DNA from: Ignavibacteriales bacterium | Lineage (GTDB): Bacteria; Bacteroidota; Ignavibacteria; UBA10030; UBA8401 | Length of the DNA stretch: 64,000 nucleotides | Direction: 5' to 3' | Assembly: GCA_026390635.1 (NCBI GenBank) | Contig: JAPLFO010000158.1 | Coordinates: 1-64,000, forward strand | In this document: piece by piece, positions 1 to 13,094 of the stretch | Numbering within the stretch: the stretch's first letter is position 1 | Layout: every line of letters begins with the position of its first letter | The notes under the pieces: model-generated | What the model was told of the DNA's origin: nothing | Database searches by the model: none | Seen by the model: only the letters and a program-made list of their open reading frames with translations | Made by a program: the position numbers and the translations under genes

Positions 1-1161
1 ACTCGAAAGCCTTCGAAACATCATCCGGCCGAGGTACATATTGACAGATCGCTCAAGTTCTGACTGTGTCAGCGAATCAACAATCCCCATCTGGAAGAAA
101 CGCGGGTATTGCGAAACAAGCGTGTCCACGTTTTTCGGGCGGGTTCCCTGCGAAATAAAGAACAGTGCCTTGTCCTGTATTACTTCGATTCCCGCACTCA
201 TATTGTACGCCATCCCCTGTTTCTCTCTGATATCGAAAACGATGAGATTCGACAACAAGAGCGATAATGCTTGGAGAGCCGGCGCATCTTTCGGATCGAT
301 CTGCACCGCAAATCCCCAGAAGATGTAGGAACGTTCACCTCCTCCGTTCTTTTCGACAATTGCCGGTTTTGAATGCAGCTGGAATGTCGCTGTAAATACA
401 CGGGGTTCCTCTTTCACCGGCACGCCTTTGAAAAGATCAAACAAAGCGCTGACTTTTTCCGGACTCGCGGGCGACACAACCGACACAATCATGTTGGCCG
501 GATTCAGATATTCCTTCGCGAAGGCCAGCAGGTTGCCATACGTCAATTCAGGCTTGCTCTTATATGGATCCGTTTCGTAGACCAGCAATTTGTATTCTTC
601 ATCGAATGTCTTTTTCGCTTTATCCCCTCCCATCCCCAGCATCATAGCAATCCCTTTGTACTTCTCGACAGCCTTATTATACTCCTCTTCCGTCGGGACA
701 AAGTTCTTAATCTGGCTGTTCAGATATTGAATCGCTCCCGGCAAGTCGTCCGCAAGTCCTTCCGCGCGGATGTAGCCGAAGTCCGGATGCAAATAGATGT
801 CATCCATGGGGATCATCGGATTATCATTCACCGTATAGGTGAATCCGTAGTGACTGCTGATTTTCTGATTGTCTTCCGAATTCAGCCGTTGTCCGAGACA
901 ATCGTGCAATATCGTTGCAGCATCTTTGCCGTATTTGAATTCATAGACCGCTTTATGCTTGACGAGAAAATGGAGAGCGAGCAGGTTGCTCAATTCATTT
1001 TGCACTACGACAAGGTTCTTCCCGGTTGACGGATCTGCAAAGTGCTTCGTCGTTATCGCTGCGGACTTATTTTTTTGTGAAGTCAATTTCTGCTGCGCGG
1101 AGGAGGCAACCGGCCCGAGCAGCATCAGCAGACAGAGGAGAAATGCGGACGTTTTCTTCAT
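1..1161 (-). CDS. M16 family peptidase-like protein, non-catalytic subunit (C-terminus runs off window)
   Basis: Minus-strand reading from ATG at 1161 (MKKTSAFLLCLLMLLGPVASSAQQ signal peptide) is open to the window edge; M16 fold-like sequence with no HxxEH but with REKQGMAY (R/Y motif). Confidence 0.8.
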   Translation of the reverse strand, partial: MKKTSAFLLCLLMLLGPVASSAQQKLTSQKNKSAAITTKHFADPSTGKNLVVVQNELSNLLALHFLVKHKAVYEFKYGKDAATILHDCLGQRLNSEDNQKISSHYGFTYTVNDNPMIPMDDIYLHPDFGYIRAEGLADDLPGAIQYLNSQIKNFVPTEEEYNKAVEKYKGIAMMLGMGGDKAKKTFDEEYKLLVYETDPYKSKPELTYGNLLAFAKEYLNPANMIVSVVSPASPEKVSALFDLFKGVPVKEEPRVFTATFQLHSKPAIVEKNGGGERSYIFWGFAVQIDPKDAPALQALSLLLSNLIVFDIREKQGMAYNMSAGIEVIQDKALFFISQGTRPKNVDTLVSQYPRFFQMGIVDSLTQSELERSVNMYLGRMMFRRLSS

Positions 1162-1233
1162 AGTGAATTCTATAGTTCTCATGATATCGTTCCTATTATG
1201 CAGCGAATTGTTTTTGTGAGGTCATTCCGCACA

Positions 1234-2622
1234 TCAGCGCGGCATCATCATTCTGGGATTCATCCCCTCGGTTTTTGCTTTCTTTCCTGATGGATTTTGA
1301 AGCAACAGCAGGGGTGATGATGTCAGGCGGAATGATTCGAGTTTCTTCGCCGCTTGATAATAGAGCGCGCTGTTCATCGATTCGAAAATTGATTCCAGGC
1401 CGTTTTTGACAATATCTTCCGAATTATAGATGCCGAACATATGGGGCTTTTCCGTATTCCTGAAGTATTCCGTCCGGATCTTTGCGATTTCACTTTTCAG
1501 CGTCTGTTCCGGCAGCGTGAATTGCAGGGCTCCCAATTTCGACGATACAGCTTTCGCGAGCGCAACAGAGTCTGTCGCACCGCTGAGAATGATCGACACC
1601 TCAAAATAGTTTCCGAGATGTGAAAGCCGGCGTGCAAAACTCATCGACTTCACGGACTTCGGGAATTCTTTCTTGAGTGAGGATTGAATCCCGGCTTTTG
1701 CTTTGTCCGTCACAACGCCGAGAATGTCAAAAAATTCTGCTGACTCCTCCTGAGGCAGAGGGAAGAACAGGTCTATCACTTTTTCAGCGCCATCATAGGT
1801 GCCGCTGCCCATCATGCTTTGAGGTATCGGCCCTTTGGGGACCTGAAATCCGGTTGCCCAATCAGGATTGTTCGGCTGAAGCACCGTTCCGGCCTTCGGT
1901 TTGCCGTAAATCTCCTTGATCGCTGTAAGCATTGCAGCAGACTTGAAGCTGCCGATCACGCTCAGGATCATATTGTTCGGAACATAGAAATTCTTGTAGA
2001 ACACATTCACCGAGTCTCTTTTCATCGACTGGATGGTGGAGTACGTCCCGAGCGTGGAATTCGACAGCGCATGCCCCGGATAGAGAAACGCGAGGATATT
2101 GCGCCCGAGCTGGTCCTCCGGCGCTGCGATACTTTTCGAGATCTCTTCAAGCACAATTCCCTTCTCTTTTTCAAATTTGTCGTTTGGCAGGATGGAATTG
2201 AAGAGCATGTCAGCCTGGATCTCCATCCCTTTCCGGATATGCTCGGTCGGTGTAACCATCATATAGTTCGTATAGAATTCTGCAGTGCTCGCGTTATTGT
2301 AGCCGCCGATACGATCCACATCATCATAGAGCCGTTTCTGTTCTCTCGTGGTTGTCCCGTTGAACAGAAGGTGCTCGAGCATATGGCTCATGCCGCTCGT
2401 CACAGTCGTTTCGTACGCAGAACCGACTTTCACAATCACATTGACGCCGACCATGGGCAGCGCCGGATTCTCGATGAGCAGAACCTTCATGCCATTGCTC
2501 AACGCCGTGATCGTGACGCCTTTCGGGAGCGCCGACGTCTCCTGTTTTTTCTCTGCTGACGCAGCCTGGATGCAGAGACAGCAGATCATAAGAACAATAA
2601 ATAGTGACCGTTGATACCGCAT
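1234..2622 (-). CDS. M16 family zinc metallopeptidase, catalytic subunit
   Basis: HMLEHLLFNGT inverted zinc motif (HxxEH) with downstream EKEKGIVLEEIS glutamate; signal peptide. Confidence 0.92.
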   Translation of the reverse strand: MRYQRSLFIVLMICCLCIQAASAEKKQETSALPKGVTITALSNGMKVLLIENPALPMVGVNVIVKVGSAYETTVTSGMSHMLEHLLFNGTTTREQKRLYDDVDRIGGYNNASTAEFYTNYMMVTPTEHIRKGMEIQADMLFNSILPNDKFEKEKGIVLEEISKSIAAPEDQLGRNILAFLYPGHALSNSTLGTYSTIQSMKRDSVNVFYKNFYVPNNMILSVIGSFKSAAMLTAIKEIYGKPKAGTVLQPNNPDWATGFQVPKGPIPQSMMGSGTYDGAEKVIDLFFPLPQEESAEFFDILGVVTDKAKAGIQSSLKKEFPKSVKSMSFARRLSHLGNYFEVSIILSGATDSVALAKAVSSKLGALQFTLPEQTLKSEIAKIRTEYFRNTEKPHMFGIYNSEDIVKNGLESIFESMNSALYYQAAKKLESFRLTSSPLLLLQNPSGKKAKTEGMNPRMMMPR

Positions 2623-2670
2623 TGTGTTCCTCCATTGAATAGATTACCGTGCTCTCAAACTGCGCCGGGC

Positions 2671-3690
2671 TTAGAATTTGATCTCAAGCGACATGCGCGA
2701 CACCTTCCCCAAATCACCGTAACTGACCATCGCGTAGTCAAATCCCACCTGCTGGTTTCCAATGCCGACACTGACGCCGCCGCCAAAAGTCCACCGTTCC
2801 ACATCGTAATTCAGCTTGTATCCGGCGCGCGCAAAAATGGTTTCATCCCATGCATATTCACCGCCGATATTCATCCGTTCGACATTGTCATTTGGATGAT
2901 TTGCGTCAATAGCCAATGTAAATCGATGAACGTCTGATACGAAAAATTGATCTTTGTTGCCGACGATGTCCATTGCGATACCGACACGGAAATTCAACGG
3001 GAGCGGCCACGCTTCCGTTTTCAATCTTGCATCCGGATTGTATTCTCCGGATACATTTTTATTGATATCCGCCAGCGCTATCAAGTCCGTTCCTTCCAGC
3101 TTCATATTGCCGCCAAAATTGGAGACGCACATCGCGATCACCAGACTGTGAAAACCTGTACGCAAATAGGTGCCCAGATCCATGGCGACGGTACTCGCAT
3201 ATTCATTGTATGCATTCTGCTGGATATACTTGCCCGTAATTCCCACGGAAAATCTGTCCGTCAGCGCACGCGCATAAGAAATTCCGATGGCCAGATCATT
3301 GACGCCATAAAAAATTCCATTCCCATCAGGATTTTCAACAGTGGTCACCTCTTGCTCACCAACGTTTAATGTCAGAACACTGAGTCCGATTGCGCCGGCT
3401 TCACCAACAGGCACAACGAGACCCGCGTAATTATGTGTGATATCGGCAAACCATCTCGTATGGCTCGCATTTAAAGAAAGAGACTGCACGCCGGTGATGC
3501 CGGCCGGATTCCAATACAAAGCGCTCACGTCATTTGCAACGGCAACAAACGACTCACCCATCGCACTCGCCCTTGCGCCCGCGCCGATCTTCAGGAATTG
3601 CGCGGCGGCCGTTCCAACCTTGGAAAAATCATCGGAGTACATCGAGACCGGTACGGCAAGCACCAAAACAACCATCACGATTCTTTTCAT
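2671..3690 (-). CDS. PorV/PorQ family outer-membrane protein
   Basis: MKRIVMVVLVLAVPVSMYSDD signal peptide; FLKIGAGARASAMGESFVAVANDVSALYWNPAGI is the typical PorV/PorQ N-terminus. ORF extends to 3720, but ATG 3690 has the better RBS (GGAGAAGAGAG). Confidence 0.85.
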   Translation of the reverse strand: MKRIVMVVLVLAVPVSMYSDDFSKVGTAAAQFLKIGAGARASAMGESFVAVANDVSALYWNPAGITGVQSLSLNASHTRWFADITHNYAGLVVPVGEAGAIGLSVLTLNVGEQEVTTVENPDGNGIFYGVNDLAIGISYARALTDRFSVGITGKYIQQNAYNEYASTVAMDLGTYLRTGFHSLVIAMCVSNFGGNMKLEGTDLIALADINKNVSGEYNPDARLKTEAWPLPLNFRVGIAMDIVGNKDQFFVSDVHRFTLAIDANHPNDNVERMNIGGEYAWDETIFARAGYKLNYDVERWTFGGGVSVGIGNQQVGFDYAMVSYGDLGKVSRMSLEIKF

Positions 3691-3716
3691 CTCTCTTCTC
3701 CGCTCAGTCGAGATCA

Positions 3717-6700
3717 TCATTTAATAACGAGAAATCTTCCAACTTTTGTTTGTCCAGCGGGCACCGACACAACATACACGTAGAGACCGTACGCAATATA
3801 TTGCCCGTTCAGTGTCCGCATATCCCAAAATTCATACCCTTTGTTGTCAGTATGATCAACATCTGCGATATGATCTCCTGCCACCGTGAAGATCGAGATC
3901 CGGCATTGATTCAGCAGATGAGTGAACATCAGTTTTTTGCCATACTGATTTGTCTCCCACACATTGGAAACGACGTACGGATCAGGAACCACCCTGATTT
4001 TCTCCAGATCAACCACTTGTGATGCATCATACTTTGCTTTGCTTAAGTTGAAGGCGTAGCGAATTTCCTTGCGAAACGGCTTATACGTCTTGATCGTGAA
4101 TTGATCACCATGCGATGGAGGTACAGCTTTCTTTGTCACTGTCACGCCGTCTGCATTCTTGTAGGTATCCGGGAAATTATTTGTCTGCAGCCAAAGACCG
4201 TTGTACGTTGTATCGTGGGAGACGGGATTAATAGTAAATTGGTCGAATTCCAATATGTCTGCATATTTCTCAAAGAAACCGGAACTGCCGGGAGTGAAGC
4301 CCTTCCCACCGGGGATCAAATCCCAACCCAATGGACTATAATAGAATATTCGATAGGTATCCCACGGCGCTCCAGTTGCGAAATCCATCAGTGTTGTATT
4401 ATTGCTGATATCAATCGGATTTGCCGGATCAGTAACTATCGCTACCTTGAGCGGCAAGTGCTGCAATGGCGAAAGAAACGTGTTCCTGAAATAGTCGTAC
4501 CATCGAGACATGAGTCCGCCGGTGAGAGTCGTATCAATCGTAATTTGAAAATCATCGACCGTATAGATATTCTCTTGTGCGACCTGGGCACCCAAGCTTT
4601 TATATTTGGGAACAGGACCTGTTCTCCAATCGAAAGTACATGTGTCTCCTTTGACTTTCGTCCATCCGATCGAAGAGATGCCGGAGGGCGAATTCATCAC
4701 TGTCAACCGGAAACCGTCAACGATCGGCAGATTGTCCTGGGAGTTGTCCGAGAAAAGATGCCGATAGAACACCAGCGTCGTATCATGAGTGGCCCCGGAG
4801 ACGCGGTATAAATTGAATCCGAGGATGTAGCTTGTCGTTGTTCCGACAACCTGCTTTGCCGAATCTGCAAACGTGACAAGGTAGCTGTCGCCCGTAATCA
4901 GATCGGGCCGAACGACATCAATTTTCACCGTCCCCTGACAAATTCCTCCCATCGGTGAGACGGTTCCGTCGGGATTCACCTGTGAATTATATGTCGGCGC
5001 CACATAATTCTGCGCCTGCACACCGGGCACAACGGCAACGACATTGGGCTGCATCGTCGAATGTCCAAGCGGAGATTGGTACGACTGTTCAAGATTCACC
5101 GGGTCTTGATTTCCTTTGTCATACGCCGTAACGCAATACCAATATTCCACACCATTCAGAAGGTTCTCATCAACGTAACTATGTTTCAATCCGCTTTCAT
5201 CTCCAAGCGATTGATTGAAGGCTGGATCCTGTCCCTTAATACCGTCCACAAGATCGAAAATCTTAATCGGCTTATATCCAATGACGGAGCCAAATGCATC
5301 AGTGATAGATGTACCCCAAGTTTTGCCCAGATCGTCGCTGCGATAAAGTTTGTAACCTTCAAAGTCATTCTTTCCCGTCAGTGCGTCGCGGGAATTCTCC
5401 GCCTCTGCGTCCCAAACGATGCGTGCCTTTTTATCACCTGGATATGCTGTTACAGACGGGGTTTGTGGGGCGCCCGATCCTTGAAATTTTCTCTTATACA
5501 TCTGCTGCGCAACGCGCTGATTCTTCATCAAGTCCGACGTATCCGGCTTGTTCGGAACGGCACCCGAGTTGCCCATGATGAGCGCGACGGATGATTTTAC
5601 AGTTTCATTCGGTGCAAGACTAAACGGACCGGTCATCATAAAATAATTAATGTTGGCGCCGTCAGAAAAATAGACTTTCATACTGTCGGGATGGGTCGTA
5701 TCGAAACGTCGATTTTCACCATGGAAATATGCAGTTCGGGAACGCAGATTCGGATCGTTCGGATTGCTGGAGATGATCGGCCAAAGCTCTTCATCAACGG
5801 TCGGAACAACTTCTTTGTTGAAAAAATGAAAGTCCGTAACTCCCATGTTTTTCGGAGTCTCGATGACATTCAGTCCAACAATGCCGAGCGGCGTTGGATC
5901 GCCGACCCAGACGCCGTCTTTTGTGTTATTGGCATCCCAGAGGTAAACGAAGTCGCCGTTCGGATGAGCGTCTTGCGGATTTCCTTTCATGATGTTGATG
6001 AGATCCTTGTTATCGAAATCGGCTCGGAATATTCCATAGTACCCGACATACACACTGTCCAACTGGACACCGCTTTTGTTCCGGATAGTAAAATCCCAAA
6101 AAAGCATATCTTCTGCGTACGGCCGCCCATAGCTGAACGCTGACTCTTCAACTTCAACGCCAAGAGATCCTTTGGGGTTGGTGTTTTCCCGATCATCGAA
6201 AACGCAATAGATATCTCTGTCCGAAACGAATTCTCCCTTCACTTCCTTTCCATAGTTTGGAGAGGCTGAGTCCAATTCAATGCGGAAATGTCCCGGCCAT
6301 TGCCTCTTGCCTGGTGTGGCGATCCATGTCCCCTGTGTGTTGAAGTAGCCTTCCGGCCAAGTATCGGGATTGTCGCTGGACGCAAGAAACGGCGTTTCGT
6401 CGGGAGCGGGCGTCTTGACGTCACCGGAAAAAATCTTCCCGCGCGAGCCGGCTTTCGGCGTCCAGTCAACTCTTTGGGAGGGACCGCCGAGCACAGACGT
6501 GACAACATTCCCTCTCGATGCGACGACAAGTCCAAGGCCATAACAGTATTGGGTCGTTGTCAATGCCGCTGTCGGCCAGTGGATTGCATCATTGAAGTAT
6601 TCCAGATAGTTGGAGAGAACGCCATAGTTCCCGAGATAGTTGGAGACCTGACCTTTGTCCATGACGGCAAGAGCACGTTCTCCGACGGATGCAGTCTTTA

Positions 6701-6818
6701 GAAACTTGTCTGCCTTCACCGGTTTTGCGCCTGCATGACACATACTGCATGTCTGCGTCTGAGCCTGGACGGTCATGGACACAGCAACAATCATGATTGC
6801 AACAACAAAGACTCGCAT
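3717..6818 (-). CDS. Large secreted protein with N-terminal CxxCH motif and fibronectin-type-III-like region; T9SS-like C-terminus
   Basis: Signal peptide then QTCSMCHAGAKP; mid-region FN3-like (PSVTAYPGDKKARIVWDAEAENS...YKLYRS); C-terminal RVVPDPYVVSN...GLYVYVVSVPAGQTKVGRFLVIK. ATG 6818 has AGGAGA RBS. Confidence 0.75.
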   Translation of the reverse strand: MRVFVVAIMIVAVSMTVQAQTQTCSMCHAGAKPVKADKFLKTASVGERALAVMDKGQVSNYLGNYGVLSNYLEYFNDAIHWPTAALTTTQYCYGLGLVVASRGNVVTSVLGGPSQRVDWTPKAGSRGKIFSGDVKTPAPDETPFLASSDNPDTWPEGYFNTQGTWIATPGKRQWPGHFRIELDSASPNYGKEVKGEFVSDRDIYCVFDDRENTNPKGSLGVEVEESAFSYGRPYAEDMLFWDFTIRNKSGVQLDSVYVGYYGIFRADFDNKDLINIMKGNPQDAHPNGDFVYLWDANNTKDGVWVGDPTPLGIVGLNVIETPKNMGVTDFHFFNKEVVPTVDEELWPIISSNPNDPNLRSRTAYFHGENRRFDTTHPDSMKVYFSDGANINYFMMTGPFSLAPNETVKSSVALIMGNSGAVPNKPDTSDLMKNQRVAQQMYKRKFQGSGAPQTPSVTAYPGDKKARIVWDAEAENSRDALTGKNDFEGYKLYRSDDLGKTWGTSITDAFGSVIGYKPIKIFDLVDGIKGQDPAFNQSLGDESGLKHSYVDENLLNGVEYWYCVTAYDKGNQDPVNLEQSYQSPLGHSTMQPNVVAVVPGVQAQNYVAPTYNSQVNPDGTVSPMGGICQGTVKIDVVRPDLITGDSYLVTFADSAKQVVGTTTSYILGFNLYRVSGATHDTTLVFYRHLFSDNSQDNLPIVDGFRLTVMNSPSGISSIGWTKVKGDTCTFDWRTGPVPKYKSLGAQVAQENIYTVDDFQITIDTTLTGGLMSRWYDYFRNTFLSPLQHLPLKVAIVTDPANPIDISNNTTLMDFATGAPWDTYRIFYYSPLGWDLIPGGKGFTPGSSGFFEKYADILEFDQFTINPVSHDTTYNGLWLQTNNFPDTYKNADGVTVTKKAVPPSHGDQFTIKTYKPFRKEIRYAFNLSKAKYDASQVVDLEKIRVVPDPYVVSNVWETNQYGKKLMFTHLLNQCRISIFTVAGDHIADVDHTDNKGYEFWDMRTLNGQYIAYGLYVYVVSVPAGQTKVGRFLVIK

Positions 6819-6832
6819 CGATCGTTCTCCTA

Positions 6833-9289
6833 TTACCAAAGAATTTGAACTCCCGCCTTTACAATTCGCGGTGGTCCGAGATTCGCGGGATTGTGGTCCG
6901 CATCCGGAGATGACCCTACATATCCGGAAAGGCCTGTATCGAATGGTTTGCCGCTGCGTGAATAAACGTTGCGGACATTTTCGGTGTTCAGCAGATTTGT
7001 GACTTCAACGAACAGAGATGCTGCAATTTCTGAGAACCAGAATTTCCGGATCATTCTCAGATCCACCGTTGACGTCCATGGTTTTCGTGCAGAATTGAGA
7101 TCGATTCGGACTGAAGGATCAACATACGGAGTGTATGGCAATCCACTTCCCGCCTGCAACAGCACGTTGAGATTGAAATCCGAGAGTGGAAGCACTCCAA
7201 AAATACTCGGCCCCTTGCCTTTGGGAATGTTGAGATTCAGGTTCACAGAGAAATCATGGGATTGATCGAAGTCGAGATAGTATTCCTGATGGGGGATCTC
7301 CTCTTTCGAATATGCACTTTGGTACCCCCCGAGCGGCTGGGAATTGTTTCCTTTGGCAACCATCATGGTGTAGTTGAACGATCCGGAAAAATAGTCGCTG
7401 TACCGTTTGTTCAACGTAAAGTCAATTCCTTTGACACTGGCATAGTCTGAATTGTAGAAGACGACGTAGTCTTGTGACAAATATGTCACCTGCAGCGTGG
7501 AAAGAAGATCCGTAATGTCCTTGTACCATCCCGACATTTCGAGAACCCAATCGTCGCTCAGTTTATATTTCAGCCCCGTCTCGTACGCAACCGTCTTCTG
7601 CGCTTTGATTGCAGGATTTCCAACGAGAGGCATTGAGGACGAGAGGTCCTTGTTATGGTTATAGTAGAGTGCGTTATAGTTCGGATTCTGGAAGAAATGT
7701 CCATAGGAGAAATGAAGAACGGCCCGGTCTGTGACGGGATGTGCCAAACCGATGCGCGGACTGAGCTGGGTCTTTGCAGGAACGCTGAGCTCCGGCGACG
7801 GAATCCAATTGTTGTTCTGGTCAAACGATCCGAATCGCCTGATGTCGGGCCACATGGATGCTCTCGGATCTGCATAGTCAAAACGCAATCCCAAATTCAG
7901 TATCAGGTAGTCATATTCGATTTTGTCCTGGGCATAGGCGGCTATTTCGATCGGTGTTCGTACATATTCATCCTTGTACTGTGCCCCGCTCGGCCACGGT
8001 TCAGATTCCTCATGAGTCTGGATGCGATGGCTCTTGATCTCGAAACCACCTTTCAATTGATGGGCATCGTTCAATTGAAATGTCGCATCGGCCTTCCCGC
8101 TCATTGTCGTTGTCTGGTCGTCAGTATATGGTGAATCATCGCCCCGTACATAGAAGTACGCCGTCTCTCCCAATTGCCCTCGGGCGTAGTCTTGCGGCTG
8201 CTTGTTGCCAACCTGCACTTTGTAGTTATAGGTGAAAAGAGAAAATTGAGCGGTATAGAAAAGGCTCCCGCTGACGGTATGTGTGGCAAGCAGCGCGAGA
8301 CGATTGGAGACGTCCCGCTCCAGACTGTAGCCATGCGGAAGATAACTATCTTCGTTCTTGTATTTTCCCGAGACGAAGAAAGAAAAACCCGGGACGAATG
8401 GAACCGGTCCATTGAGAGATGCATTGAGTGCACCAAGCATCGGGATTTCTAATTTTGACGGATCAAAAGAAAAAGGATCAATAACGCTTTTAGGAACATA
8501 CGGATAGATGTCTTTGACACCTGTGAATGCATTGGCTTTCCGGTATGTCGATTGATTGAGCATGGGCGTCGTATATTCAACCTTCCCATGATAGCTCTCT
8601 CCGCCTTCTTTCGTTACGATATTGACGATACTGGACATCGCTTCGCCGTATTCCGCGTTGAACGTGCCGCTCACAATCATCAGCTCCTGCACGGCATCTT
8701 TGTTCATCTCTGCATTAAATCCACCGTTCAATGGATCTGACACGTACATCCCGTCAATCATATAGGCGATTTCGCCGGTTCTGCCGCCGCGCACATGAAT
8801 GTTCCCGTCGGCATCAGTCGTAAATCCGGCTTTTGTTGCCAGCACATCCTGAACATTTTCCACCGGCATATTGACGAGCTCTTCAGAACTCATCATCGAG
8901 AGCTTCGACGTAATGTCTTTTTGGATAAGCGGACGCTCCGCCACAACGACGGTTTCTCCCATCTCTACGGCGCTCGACTCCAACGAGAAGTTTGCCGTCG
9001 TTGTCAGATCAACCCTCACCTCAACATTGGTGAGCTTGTACGTCCTGTATCCCACCAGCACGGCTCTCAGTATGTACTTTCCCGGCGAGATATTAAGGAT
9101 GTAGAATTTTCCATTGGGATCCGATGTGGCTCCCGCGGTTGTTCCTTCGATGAGGATATTGCAGCCGGGGAGGAGATCGCCGGTTCCGGCATCACGCACC
9201 GTTCCGGCTATTTTACCTGTGCTGCCTGCCAGCATCAGAGCGGGTAGAACAGAAATCAGCACAAGACAGACAAAGAGATTTTTTTTCAT
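6833..9289 (-). CDS. TonB-dependent receptor with N-terminal carboxypeptidase-regulatory-like domain
   Basis: Signal peptide; GKIAGTVRDAGTGDLLPGCNILIEGTTAGATSDPNGKFYILNISPGKY; plug-like PVENVQDVLATKAGFTTDADGNIHVRGGRTGEIAYMIDGMYVSDPLNGG; C-terminal beta-barrel. Confidence 0.92.
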   Translation of the reverse strand: MKKNLFVCLVLISVLPALMLAGSTGKIAGTVRDAGTGDLLPGCNILIEGTTAGATSDPNGKFYILNISPGKYILRAVLVGYRTYKLTNVEVRVDLTTTANFSLESSAVEMGETVVVAERPLIQKDITSKLSMMSSEELVNMPVENVQDVLATKAGFTTDADGNIHVRGGRTGEIAYMIDGMYVSDPLNGGFNAEMNKDAVQELMIVSGTFNAEYGEAMSSIVNIVTKEGGESYHGKVEYTTPMLNQSTYRKANAFTGVKDIYPYVPKSVIDPFSFDPSKLEIPMLGALNASLNGPVPFVPGFSFFVSGKYKNEDSYLPHGYSLERDVSNRLALLATHTVSGSLFYTAQFSLFTYNYKVQVGNKQPQDYARGQLGETAYFYVRGDDSPYTDDQTTTMSGKADATFQLNDAHQLKGGFEIKSHRIQTHEESEPWPSGAQYKDEYVRTPIEIAAYAQDKIEYDYLILNLGLRFDYADPRASMWPDIRRFGSFDQNNNWIPSPELSVPAKTQLSPRIGLAHPVTDRAVLHFSYGHFFQNPNYNALYYNHNKDLSSSMPLVGNPAIKAQKTVAYETGLKYKLSDDWVLEMSGWYKDITDLLSTLQVTYLSQDYVVFYNSDYASVKGIDFTLNKRYSDYFSGSFNYTMMVAKGNNSQPLGGYQSAYSKEEIPHQEYYLDFDQSHDFSVNLNLNIPKGKGPSIFGVLPLSDFNLNVLLQAGSGLPYTPYVDPSVRIDLNSARKPWTSTVDLRMIRKFWFSEIAASLFVEVTNLLNTENVRNVYSRSGKPFDTGLSGYVGSSPDADHNPANLGPPRIVKAGVQILW

Positions 9290-9493: not shown

Positions 9494-11206
9494 TCAGCGC
9501 ATCAGAATCATTTTCTTGCTTTCGTTCACATTGCCGGAAGAGAGTGAATAGATATAGACGCCGGACGGGGCTGATTTTCCAAACGCATCCTGGCCATCCC
9601 ATGTGATTTCATGGTAACCGGCAGACTGCGATCCGGAGATGAGAGTCTTAACATGACGTCCCAGAATATCATAGACCGCCAGCGTTGTGTGCCCGGCGGA
9701 GAGAAGAGCGAAGGAGATTCTCGTTTCCGGATTGAATGGATTGGGATAGTTTTGCGAGAGTTGCGCCTTGTCAGGAACAATCGCACTCATATTCTTCTGG
9801 ACAGGGGATGCCGTGCCCAGCGTTCTTACAACGATATTATCAAAATATGCCGGCAGGCCTGTGGCGCTCTGCTGGAATGAATAAAGTCCAAAGCCGCCGG
9901 AAGTGTTGCGCGTTGATGTTGTATCAACAATAGGACATCCGGTCAACAGGACACCGTCAAAGAAGCACCAGAAACTTGTTTGTGCTGCGCTCGTGTTGCG
10001 GACCTCAATCCTCATCTTATGCCATCCATCGGTTGTCGGATAGCGACCAGGATTGTCGACACCCTTGAAATCTTTGCTGAAGAGCGGCAAGAAAGTATTG
10101 GGATCTGATTTCAGACCGGAGAGATTAATCCGATCGCTGACATCGAAATCGACACGCAGCTTATAGAAATCCCTCTTTGAGCTGTCGGCGTACACAACCA
10201 ATCCGGAATATGCTGAGAGAGCCTGATTGACATAGCAATAGACATCTGCTTCAATGGAATAATTTTTCAGGTTCAACGCCCCGGCGACTGACACCGCCGA
10301 TCCGGTGTATGAGCCATTGATATCCTGCAGCAATCCGACATAGTTTCCGCCGCCGGTGAGAGGTTTCGGTGCTGCGGACATCGGTTTTGCCTTGACGCTG
10401 TCTTCACCTGCGTAGTAGGTTCCCCATGCTGCCTTTGCTGTGCCAGTCTCAAAGTCTTCAGAAAATATAATATCTGTCGGAAGAGTTTTTACAACGATGT
10501 TGTCAAAATATGCCGGCAAGCCTGTGGCGCTCTGCTGGAATGAATAAAGCCCGAAGCCGCCGGAAGTATTGCGTGTTGATGATGAATCAATGATCGGGCA
10601 TCCTGCCAACAAAACTCCGTCAAAATAGCACCAGAAACTTGTCTCGTAGGCGTTGATGGTGCGAACTTCAATTTTCATCTTGTGCCATCCATCGGTTGTC
10701 GGATAGCGGCCAGGATTGTCGACACCCTTAAAATCTTTGCTGAAGAGCGGCAAGAAAGTATTGGGATCTGATTTCAGACCGGAGAGATTAATCCGATCGC
10801 TGACATCGAAATCGACACGCAGCTTATAGAAATCCTTCTTTGAGCTGTCGGCGTACACAACCAATCCGGACTATGCTGAGAGAGCCTGATTGACATAGCA
10901 ATACACATCTGCTTCAATGGAATAATTTTGCAGGTTCAACGCCCCGGCAGCTGACACCGCCGATCCGGTGTATGAGCCGTTGATATCCTGCAGCAATCCG
11001 ACATAGTTTCCGCCGCCGGTGAGAGGTTTCGGTGCTGCAGACATCGGTTTTGCCTTGACGCTGTCTTCACCTGCGTAGTAGGTTCCCCATGCGGCTTTTG
11101 CGGTGCCTGTCTCGAAATCTTCTGAAAAAACAACCGTCTGCGCTTCAGCAAGCCGAAGAAAGACGGAGAACATCAACACCAACAAAATGGTAAATGTCTT
11201 TTTCAT
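9494..11206 (-). pseudogene. Tandem-repeat secreted protein with T9SS type A sorting domain, interrupted by in-frame TAG
   Basis: ORFs 10871..11206 and 9494..10864 are the same frame, separated by one stop (CTCTCAGCATAG TCC); the equivalent position in the second repeat reads CTCTCAGCATAT TCC (LSAYSGLV). C-terminus LSQNYPNPFNPETRISFALL...GVYIYSLSSGN. Confidence 0.8.
9806..11128 (-). repeat. Two tandem near-identical ~663 bp (221 aa) coding repeats
   Basis: FSEDFETGTAKAAWGTYYAGEDSVKAKPMSAAPKPLTGGGNYVGLLQDINGSYTG... begins at ~11128 and again at ~10465; long stretches identical at nucleotide level. Confidence 0.9.
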
Positions 11207-11660: not shown

Positions 11661-12635
11661 CTATTTTTTGGGACCTAACCCAAGTGCGGAAATGTCCATT
11701 AAATAGAGTTTGAGTTTTCGTTCACCGGGTTTCGAATCTCGACCGGAGGAAAAAGCCAACAGCTTTCCGTCGGGAGAAATGGCGGGAAATCCGTCAAACG
11801 CATCGCTGAACGTCAAGCGCGTTTGCTCACCTGTTTTCAGGCTCATCAAAAATATTTCATAGTTGTGCGGCGGCAGTACCTTCACGAAAGCAAAATGCTC
11901 GCCGTCAGGAGCCGGGTACGGCGCCCAATTGGTTCCGGTGTCTGTCGTAATCCGCGTGAGTTGCGATCCATCGGACTTCAGCGTGAAAATGCTCATGGGC
12001 ATTCCGCGCTGGGCTTGATTCTTGATCTCCCATGCGCGACAGATGATTGTCTCGTTATCGATGAAGAACGATCCGCCTTCCTGCCACTCCGGAGTGAACG
12101 TGATCTGTTCCTGAGCACTGCCGTCGGGCCTCATCCTCCAGAGATCCAGTTTTCCGTCAATTTGCCGCGTGAAGAGGATCCATTTTCCATTCGGGGATAG
12201 TGATGCTTCCGCATCATAGCAGGTGTTCTTCGTGAGGCGCATCCGGTCACTGCCGTCGGGTTTGCAGGAATAGAGTTCCGCACCCTGCGGATAGTCTTTG
12301 GGATCGGAATAGTTCCCGCGTTTCATCTCCAGATTATCTCTCGTCGACGTGAAGATCAGACGTTTTCCATCAGGAAAATAATAAGAACAGGCATCTTCGC
12401 CGAGGTGATTAATACAGACGAGGTCCTTGCCATCGATGCCAATGGTGTACACCTGATGGACGGTGTCGTTGCCGTATTTTGCGTTGCCTATCAAACGTTT
12501 CCCATCCGGCGAAAAATAGAACTCGGCGCCTTCATCCATGTTCGGCACCATCCAGGTTCTGAATTCTTTTTGCTCTGTGGGTTGGGTCTTCGTCTCTTGT
12601 CCCGGGACGCTCAACGCCGCAAACATCGCGACCAT
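11661..12635 (-). CDS. TolB-like beta-propeller (PD40/WD40-like repeat) protein
   Basis: Repeated FSPDGKRLIG, YFPDGKRLIFTS, LSPNGKWILFTR, ISPDGKLLAFSSGRDS motifs. Start uncertain: ORF reaches 12812 but the predicted promoter at 12688-12716 implies a start downstream (ATG 12635 or TTG 12667). Confidence 0.8.
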   Translation of the reverse strand: MVAMFAALSVPGQETKTQPTEQKEFRTWMVPNMDEGAEFYFSPDGKRLIGNAKYGNDTVHQVYTIGIDGKDLVCINHLGEDACSYYFPDGKRLIFTSTRDNLEMKRGNYSDPKDYPQGAELYSCKPDGSDRMRLTKNTCYDAEASLSPNGKWILFTRQIDGKLDLWRMRPDGSAQEQITFTPEWQEGGSFFIDNETIICRAWEIKNQAQRGMPMSIFTLKSDGSQLTRITTDTGTNWAPYPAPDGEHFAFVKVLPPHNYEIFLMSLKTGEQTRLTFSDAFDGFPAISPDGKLLAFSSGRDSKPGERKLKLYLMDISALGLGPKK

Positions 12636-12687
12636 GGCGCAAACGCGATCAGTTCTTCCTGATGGCAAGTTACTGGTGCGGATGAGA

Positions 12688-12716
12688 AAGATACTCCTTG
12701 TCTCAGAGTATGTCAA
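12688..12716 (-). promoter_or_regulatory. sigma70-like promoter TTGACA-N17-TATCTT
   Basis: Minus strand: -35 TTGACA (12711-12716), 17 bp spacer, -10 TATCTT (12688-12693); upstream of TolB-like gene. Confidence 0.5.
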
Positions 12717-13094
12717 TTGAAAAAGAGGGAAAAGACCCGGAAATGATTTTCTATCATTTTGTTTTTGACCATTGGTCAATCGTTCGTAATCAAGAAGGCC
12801 AACCCGCAGCAACAGACTGCAAACGTGAGAAGAGTGTTAACCAATGGTCAATCCGATTCTGCCCAATTGAGAAATTCAGGCGGGCAAACATATCCCGATG
12901 CCGGTGCCGACTTCTATCGAAAAGAGACGGTCCATTGCGGCGTCGTGGAACGTATTGCGCATGGTCGGCTCCCGGGAAGAAGAAACATTCGGCTCATGAA
13001 AATACAGATGCACTGCTTGAGATGGAGTATTGCACTGCCGAAGGGGAGCACACTAAAGATGGTTCGCGACGGAGACCGCCTCCCAGCATTCAGA

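Follow-up and report, generated by a model that had tools for sequence, protein, structure and literature searches.

Genes of the locus and a repeated cassette

The stretch of DNA analysed here (hereafter the window) comprises 64,000 nucleotides from an Ignavibacteriales bacterium (GenBank assembly GCA_026390635.1, contig JAPLFO010000158.1), and at its left end lie five minus-strand genes encoding a TonB-dependent receptor (TBDR), a large secreted protein that we call BIG, an outer-membrane barrel of the PorV family, and the two halves of an M16 peptidase. The window corresponds to contig C103 in a draft genome of 3.98 Mb, and the contig starts at window base 1. The five open reading frames (ORFs) of the original prediction were borne out, with coordinates that were exact or off by a few codons and with domains assigned via Pfam and NCBIfam (Table 1); the intergenic gaps among them are 14, 26, 48, and 51 bp. 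Two same-strand genes upstream, absent from that prediction, are part of the conserved locus as well: LECT, which has a clear C-terminal signal for the type IX secretion system (T9SS), and PD40. Scans for sigma-70 promoters and terminators gave results near chance level. Nearly all of the genomes compared are drafts, and what we say about the function of the locus is drawn from sequence.

Table 1. Features of the locus in the window.
Feature	Coordinates	Strand	Evidence
M16b, second (inactive-type) half of split M16 peptidase, own N-terminal signal-like stretch, cut by contig end	1-1182	-	PF05193 M16_C 2.1e-18
M16a, catalytic half of M16 peptidase, signal peptide	1234-2622	-	PF00675 1.2e-26 and part of M16_C
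HMLEH zinc motif of M16a	2371-2385	-	
PorV-family outer-membrane barrel	2671-3690	-	NF033709 PorV_fam 6.2e-64, 216.6 bits (cut-off 90)
BIG, 1033-aa secreted beta-rich surface protein	3717-6818	-	no Pfam/NCBIfam family
BIG C-terminal domain, T9SS-CTD-like	3720-4007	-	weak CHU_C and PorZ C-terminus matches
CxxCH (CSMCH, BIG residues 24-28), predicted single c-type heme site on flexible N-terminal arm	6735-6749	-	
TBDR with N-terminal carboxypeptidase-regulatory-like domain	6833-9289	-	PF13715 CarboxypepD_reg, PF07715 Plug, PF00593 barrel
LECT, tandem beta-sandwich protein with T9SS sorting domain	9494-11206	-	PF18962 1.9e-6, PF13860
PD40 (WD40-like propeller) protein	11661-12812	-	PF07676 2.1e-32

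TBDR, BIG, and PorV form a conserved three-gene unit that is repeated genome-wide, the other copies having other neighbours. A cassette scan of the named genomes returned 80 loci spanning about ten phyla of the Fibrobacteres-Chlorobi-Bacteroidetes (FCB) group (Ignavibacteria, KSB1, Neomarinimicrobiota, Calditrichota, WOR-3, TA06, Cloacimonetes, Zixibacteria, and others). Counting loci with enough flanking sequence, the gene immediately after BIG is PorV in 68 of 69, and the one immediately before it encodes a TonB receptor in 65 of 68. Pairwise distance matrices of the three proteins mirror each other (r = 0.94–0.97 over 64 non-redundant loci, whereas 2000 permutations gave no more than 0.17): the three genes are passed on together. 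The correlation is weaker among six paralogs from the window's own genome alone (0.51 for BIG-PorV, 0.73 for BIG-TBDR). The BIG family was matched in all 60 relatives searched and 26 times in the own genome, where all fetched paralogs not truncated at a contig end are ordered TBDR-BIG-PorV. Thirteen of the 16 PF19572 PorV genes in this genome have a same-strand TonB plug ∼7 kb or less upstream, and a search-based count that includes fetched loci gives about 14 cassettes. At one place (L246; contig C112, 2108-6001) the gene right after a TonB receptor is of PorV type, and a BIG could not be recognised in between. No published description of the cassette was found in open-licence papers.

Degradative-type neighbours occur at about 6 of the 14 cassettes of this genome. 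A GH94 gene and two PF10091 glucanase-type genes adjoin the cassette on contig C42 (loci L052 and L245), and further neighbours are a sulfatase (C94), GHL10 hydrolases (C147 and C53), and an M20 peptidase (C31). GH94 together with PF10091/GH144 presumably serves the use of beta-1,2-glucan, and the C42 cassette looks like a beta-1,2-glucan locus. The SusD families PF07980 and PF14322 have no match in the own genome, and SusD_RagB was found in only 7 of the 60 relatives that all contain the BIG family. Others scarcely detected susCD in the carbohydrate-active enzyme clusters of Ignavibacteriales (PMC10576277). T9SS core genes are present in the own genome (SprA_N, 2.8e-52; the sortase-type Peptidase_C25, 1.2e-41).

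Cassette proteins and linked peptidases

The AlphaFold2 model of BIG is of fair confidence (mean predicted local distance difference test (pLDDT) 80.5, predicted template modelling (TM) score 0.65) and mainly beta-sandwich, similar to fibronectin type III (FN3) domains. Its fold matches include PorZ (5m11, with the top E-value), fibronectin-III arrays, and the sandwich domains of GH94-type phosphorylases; with no SusD among them, a SusD fold was rejected. T9SS-like matches consistently span the C-terminal 70–100 residues and are best to the PorZ C-terminus. These matches (CHU_C, PorZ, TIGR04183) are sub-threshold in BIG itself and stronger in relatives, with E-values of up to 0.00032 for CHU_C and up to 1.8e-6 for PorZ. 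BIG recalls the PorZ-PorQ and PorU-PorV complex of Porphyromonas gingivalis in its C-terminus and top fold match, but differs in the FN3-like remainder. Global homology to PorZ was rejected, as the TM score is 0.09, the two do not superpose globally, and the sequence match is confined to the C-terminus. Lipoprotein anchoring through the first cysteine was rejected too, there being no lipobox before C24 in BIG or its orthologs.

The CxxCH motif lies just after the signal peptide of BIG, in a region (residues 16-77) modelled as disordered with pLDDT <50. C24, C27, and H28 are invariant in an alignment of 15 BIG orthologs, and the motif is absent from the BIG paralogs compared. The genome encodes cytochrome c assembly proteins (PF01578 matches), and the motif is predicted to bind heme. 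Among the named loci, an M1-type peptidase is linked to 19 of the 20 CxxCH loci in which it was found or both flanks were complete, compared with none of the five CxxCH-less loci with full flanks, kinship being ignored in both counts. The one CxxCH locus without it despite a full flank belongs to Calditrichota.

The receptor matches its three Pfam domains over cut-off, with a secondary match to PF25183 and a partial, below-cut-off match to the SusC-specific TIGR04056 (1.3e-15). Receptors at the locus, those of relatives included, are 818–897 aa long, a TonB-box-like ETVVVAERP is seen in the alignment, and the model is that of an ordinary TonB receptor, with about 20 strands counted by eye in the window copy. 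The barrel gene encodes a PorV-family member that falls below the equivalog cut-offs for canonical PorV (NF033710, 84.8 bits against 250) and for PorQ. The original prediction had pointed to FusA/FusC and YddB/PqqL, which pair a TonB receptor with an M16 protease, and a specific relationship with either did not hold up. Profile matches of the TBDR are led by Cir, followed by PhuR and RagA, before any FusA-type protein, and none at E≤1e-5 is a FusA or YddB entry; in the fold search, YddB is match 18 and FusA match 26, among generic TBDRs. Among solved structures, M16 is nearest to M16B processing proteases, ahead of weaker matches to PqqL (8.9e-21) and to putative zinc proteases of FusC size (6b03, 6brs).

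True orthologs of BIG (62–71% identity) were found in 19 of 391 genomes of the class, in families f1, f6, f14, and f24, and the layout of the locus is kept across these Ignavibacteria families. The operon order is LECT-TBDR-BIG-PorV-M16-M1/M28/PDZ peptidase-PD40-420-440-aa protein, with LECT directly upstream of TBDR. In relatives PD40 comes after the peptidase gene; in the window it is upstream of LECT, and it scores 558 bits to the PD40 of locus L082. The exported protein of 420–440 aa at the operon end (L111:21580-22887 and relatives) is conserved and has no Pfam match. Four loci that lack M16 (L104, L107, L108, L110) encode a ChaN-type PDZ protein of the haem-binding/Tiki superfamily, an NHL protein, and two unknowns of ∼440 and 127 aa. 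In Neomarinimicrobiota (L122, L123, L124, L128, L136) and in the bacterium of L130, whose locus closely resembles theirs, M16 and an M1 or M1/M28 peptidase are instead found upstream of LECT-TBDR-BIG-PorV, so the linkage of peptidases and cassette survives rearrangement.

M16 of the Neomarinimicrobiota and Ignavibacteria loci match each other at about 846 bits, and other M16 proteins of the own genome at most at 120 bits. Among the 18 informative genomes that have a BIG ortholog, 14 contain this M16 subfamily, versus 19 of 373 other genomes (odds ratio 65, P = 1.2e-13, kinship ignored). In 13 of the 14 the gene adjoins the cassette on one contig, and in the remaining one (G141) the two stand at contig ends that would abut. 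The zinc motif HxxEH of M16 is intact in all relatives checked, the HExxH-18-E motif is intact as well, and by inspection the peptidases at the locus carry signal peptides or a lipobox.

The M16 pair of the original prediction is indeed two ORFs in the window, but it represents a single gene of 870–907 aa in relatives (872 aa in L082). M16a shares 60% identity with the N-terminal half of the L082 protein and M16b 68% with its residues 447-818; in M16b, a hydrophobic, signal-like N-terminus replaces the linker of the intact enzyme. A plain frameshift is an unlikely cause, because 51 bp separate the ORFs of the two halves, the linker residues differ, and this signal-like N-terminus is new. The split looks like a gene fission that added an export signal, and an exported M16 enzyme fits with the second half having gained a signal-like N-terminus of its own.

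Proposed function and alternative explanations

On balance we lean, by a small measure, towards reading the locus as a SusCD-like TonB uptake complex, akin to those of polysaccharide-utilisation loci but assembled from T9SS parts without SusD, this copy serving peptides or proteins. The TBDR would be the energised outer-membrane gate, and BIG the large substrate-binding surface subunit, which would leave the periplasm through the T9SS. The PorV-type barrel, whose gene comes right after BIG, would pick BIG up at the translocon, in the way that SprF serves type B cargo, and it probably holds BIG at the outer membrane next to the TBDR, replacing the lipid anchor of SusD. The substrate would pass the TBDR and then be cleaved in the periplasm, by M16 first and by M1/M28 next. 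Complex formation, import direction, substrate class, and periplasmic digestion are all predicted from the sequences.

Like SusC/SusD and RagA/RagB, the system combines a TBDR with a carboxypeptidase-regulatory-like N-terminus (RagA being among its profile matches) with an adjacent large surface partner, has many copies per genome, and has degradative enzymes by some copies. It differs in that BIG is not SusD-like by sequence or fold search, has no lipobox, and is probably of T9SS type with its own PorV-type gene. The direct succession of a cargo gene and its own shuttle-type barrel gene is shared with type B cargo and PorP/SprF (PMC12618676, PMC9143113), but in this case the barrel belongs to the PorV family, the C-terminus comes closest to type A and PorZ-like domains, and a TBDR is included in the unit. 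In Flavobacterium johnsoniae, all type A cargo reportedly relies on a single PorV (PMC12618676, PMC9143113).

The original prediction had suggested a possible locus for capturing and digesting protein, and for this speak the conserved layout, the M16/M1 linkage in Neomarinimicrobiota, and the tracking of the BIG ortholog by M16. Dedication to one protein does not follow from these, as the M16-peptidase pair also occurs alone, and an M16 dedicated to the cassette was rejected for the same reason. Several observations weigh against an uptake complex of the proposed kind. BIG itself matches T9SS models weakly at its C-terminus (CHU_C 0.0075, PorZ C-terminus 0.0016), some cassettes of the own genome adjoin housekeeping genes, and the window copy has a 45-aa gap in its receptor and a stop in LECT. 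Moreover, four f24 ortholog loci are without M16 and carry PD40, x439, x127, NHL, ChaN, and M1/M28 instead, and 14 fetched loci have the M16-M1/M28 pair but no cassette, 4 others having M16 alone. Because the pair stands free elsewhere and these four loci lack M16, the peptidases are a recruited module and not parts exclusive to this receptor. The free-standing pair of M16 and M1/M28/PDZ peptidase (L221-L237) is common in Ignavibacteria and constitutes a second conserved two-gene unit.

The position of a TBDR gene beside that of an exported M16 metallopeptidase recalls Fus and YddB/PqqL, and BIG and the TBDR might import an intact heme or iron protein whose cofactor is cut out by M16 in the periplasm. 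The co-occurrence of CxxCH with linked M1-type peptidases would suit such whole-protein piracy, as would the ChaN-type gene of the M16-less clade, which is of a family listed in Pfam as haem-binding uptake/Tiki. Proteobacteria widely carry Fus clusters, and the published survey deals with proteobacterial clusters (PMC6793856). We nevertheless regard this explanation as unlikely, since the TBDR and M16 belong to other subfamilies and M16 is not exclusive to the locus. An aminopeptidase-type M1/M28 enzyme rather suggests that peptides are used as food, and neither an iron-uptake gene nor a regulator was recognised next to the locus. Further differences from Fus and YddB/PqqL are the additional M1/M28 enzyme, a large surface protein probably of T9SS type, and a PorV-type barrel. 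An improbable alternative to about the same degree is a structural or sensory surface role, in which BIG would be an adhesin or part of an electron-transfer layer with CxxCH as its surface heme, and the peptidases accidental or housekeeping neighbours. The beta-sandwich architecture of BIG, the cytochrome c assembly genes, and the free-standing M16-M1/M28 pairs are in line with this, but the M16/M1 linkage outlasts rearrangement between phyla, a TonB receptor is nearly always present, and a single CxxCH on a disordered arm would make a poor electron wire. We give even less weight to the TBDR acting like Oar of Myxococcus, as an exporter that helps BIG or a peptidase to the surface without importing a nutrient. 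Oar is required for secretion of the protease PopC (PMC6434023), and the TBDR has an Oar-type carboxypeptidase-regulatory N-terminal domain in addition to its PF25183 match. Yet Oar is 300–400 aa longer than typical TonB-dependent transporters (PMC6434023), a length the receptors here do not have, BIG already has a probable T9SS-type C-terminus and a PorV-type partner, and several cassettes adjoin degradative enzymes.

Beyond the SusCD-like reading of this one locus, a broader proposal falls somewhat short of an even chance in our estimate. TBDR-BIG-PorV may be an unnamed uptake machine of the FCB group that replaces SusC/SusD, with a T9SS-exported subunit on a dedicated PorV-type barrel and with twelve or so copies or more per genome that serve different polymers, among them one for proteins with a surface heme. 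FCB lineages such as Ignavibacteria, Neomarinimicrobiota, Calditrichota, Zixibacteria, and their relatives are frequent in soil, sediment, and marine habitats, and the Ignavibacteria searched here mostly lack detectable SusD. A conserved, repeated cassette, in several cases beside degradative enzymes, would provide a testable answer to how such bacteria import polymer fragments. If true, it would link type IX secretion to TonB-dependent uptake, with one PorV-type barrel per cargo.

Condition of the window copy

The window copy may be partly decayed or misassembled, as indicated by its LECT stop, receptor gap, and split M16, with the locus sound in relatives. Translation reveals an in-frame stop in the first repeat of LECT (10871-10873, minus strand), dividing the gene into ORFs 10871-11206 and 9494-10864. 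The corresponding position in the second repeat is a tyrosine, and the stop is either a sequencing error or decay. The window TBDR is without 45 in-frame residues (alignment columns 421-465) that are present in every other sequence shown, through either a deletion or an assembly fault. At the contig start, M16b is cut at its 3' end and stops at residue 818 of 872 when aligned to the intact L082 protein. The M1/M28/PDZ peptidase of the own genome, 73% identical to the gene of relatives, lies at the very start of contig C3 (1-3357, L188). This gene is the next one expected beyond the left end of the window, and its place at the start of C3 fits with C103 and C3 abutting; in that case, from the point at which M16 ends, we estimate that about 260 bp would be missing at their junction.

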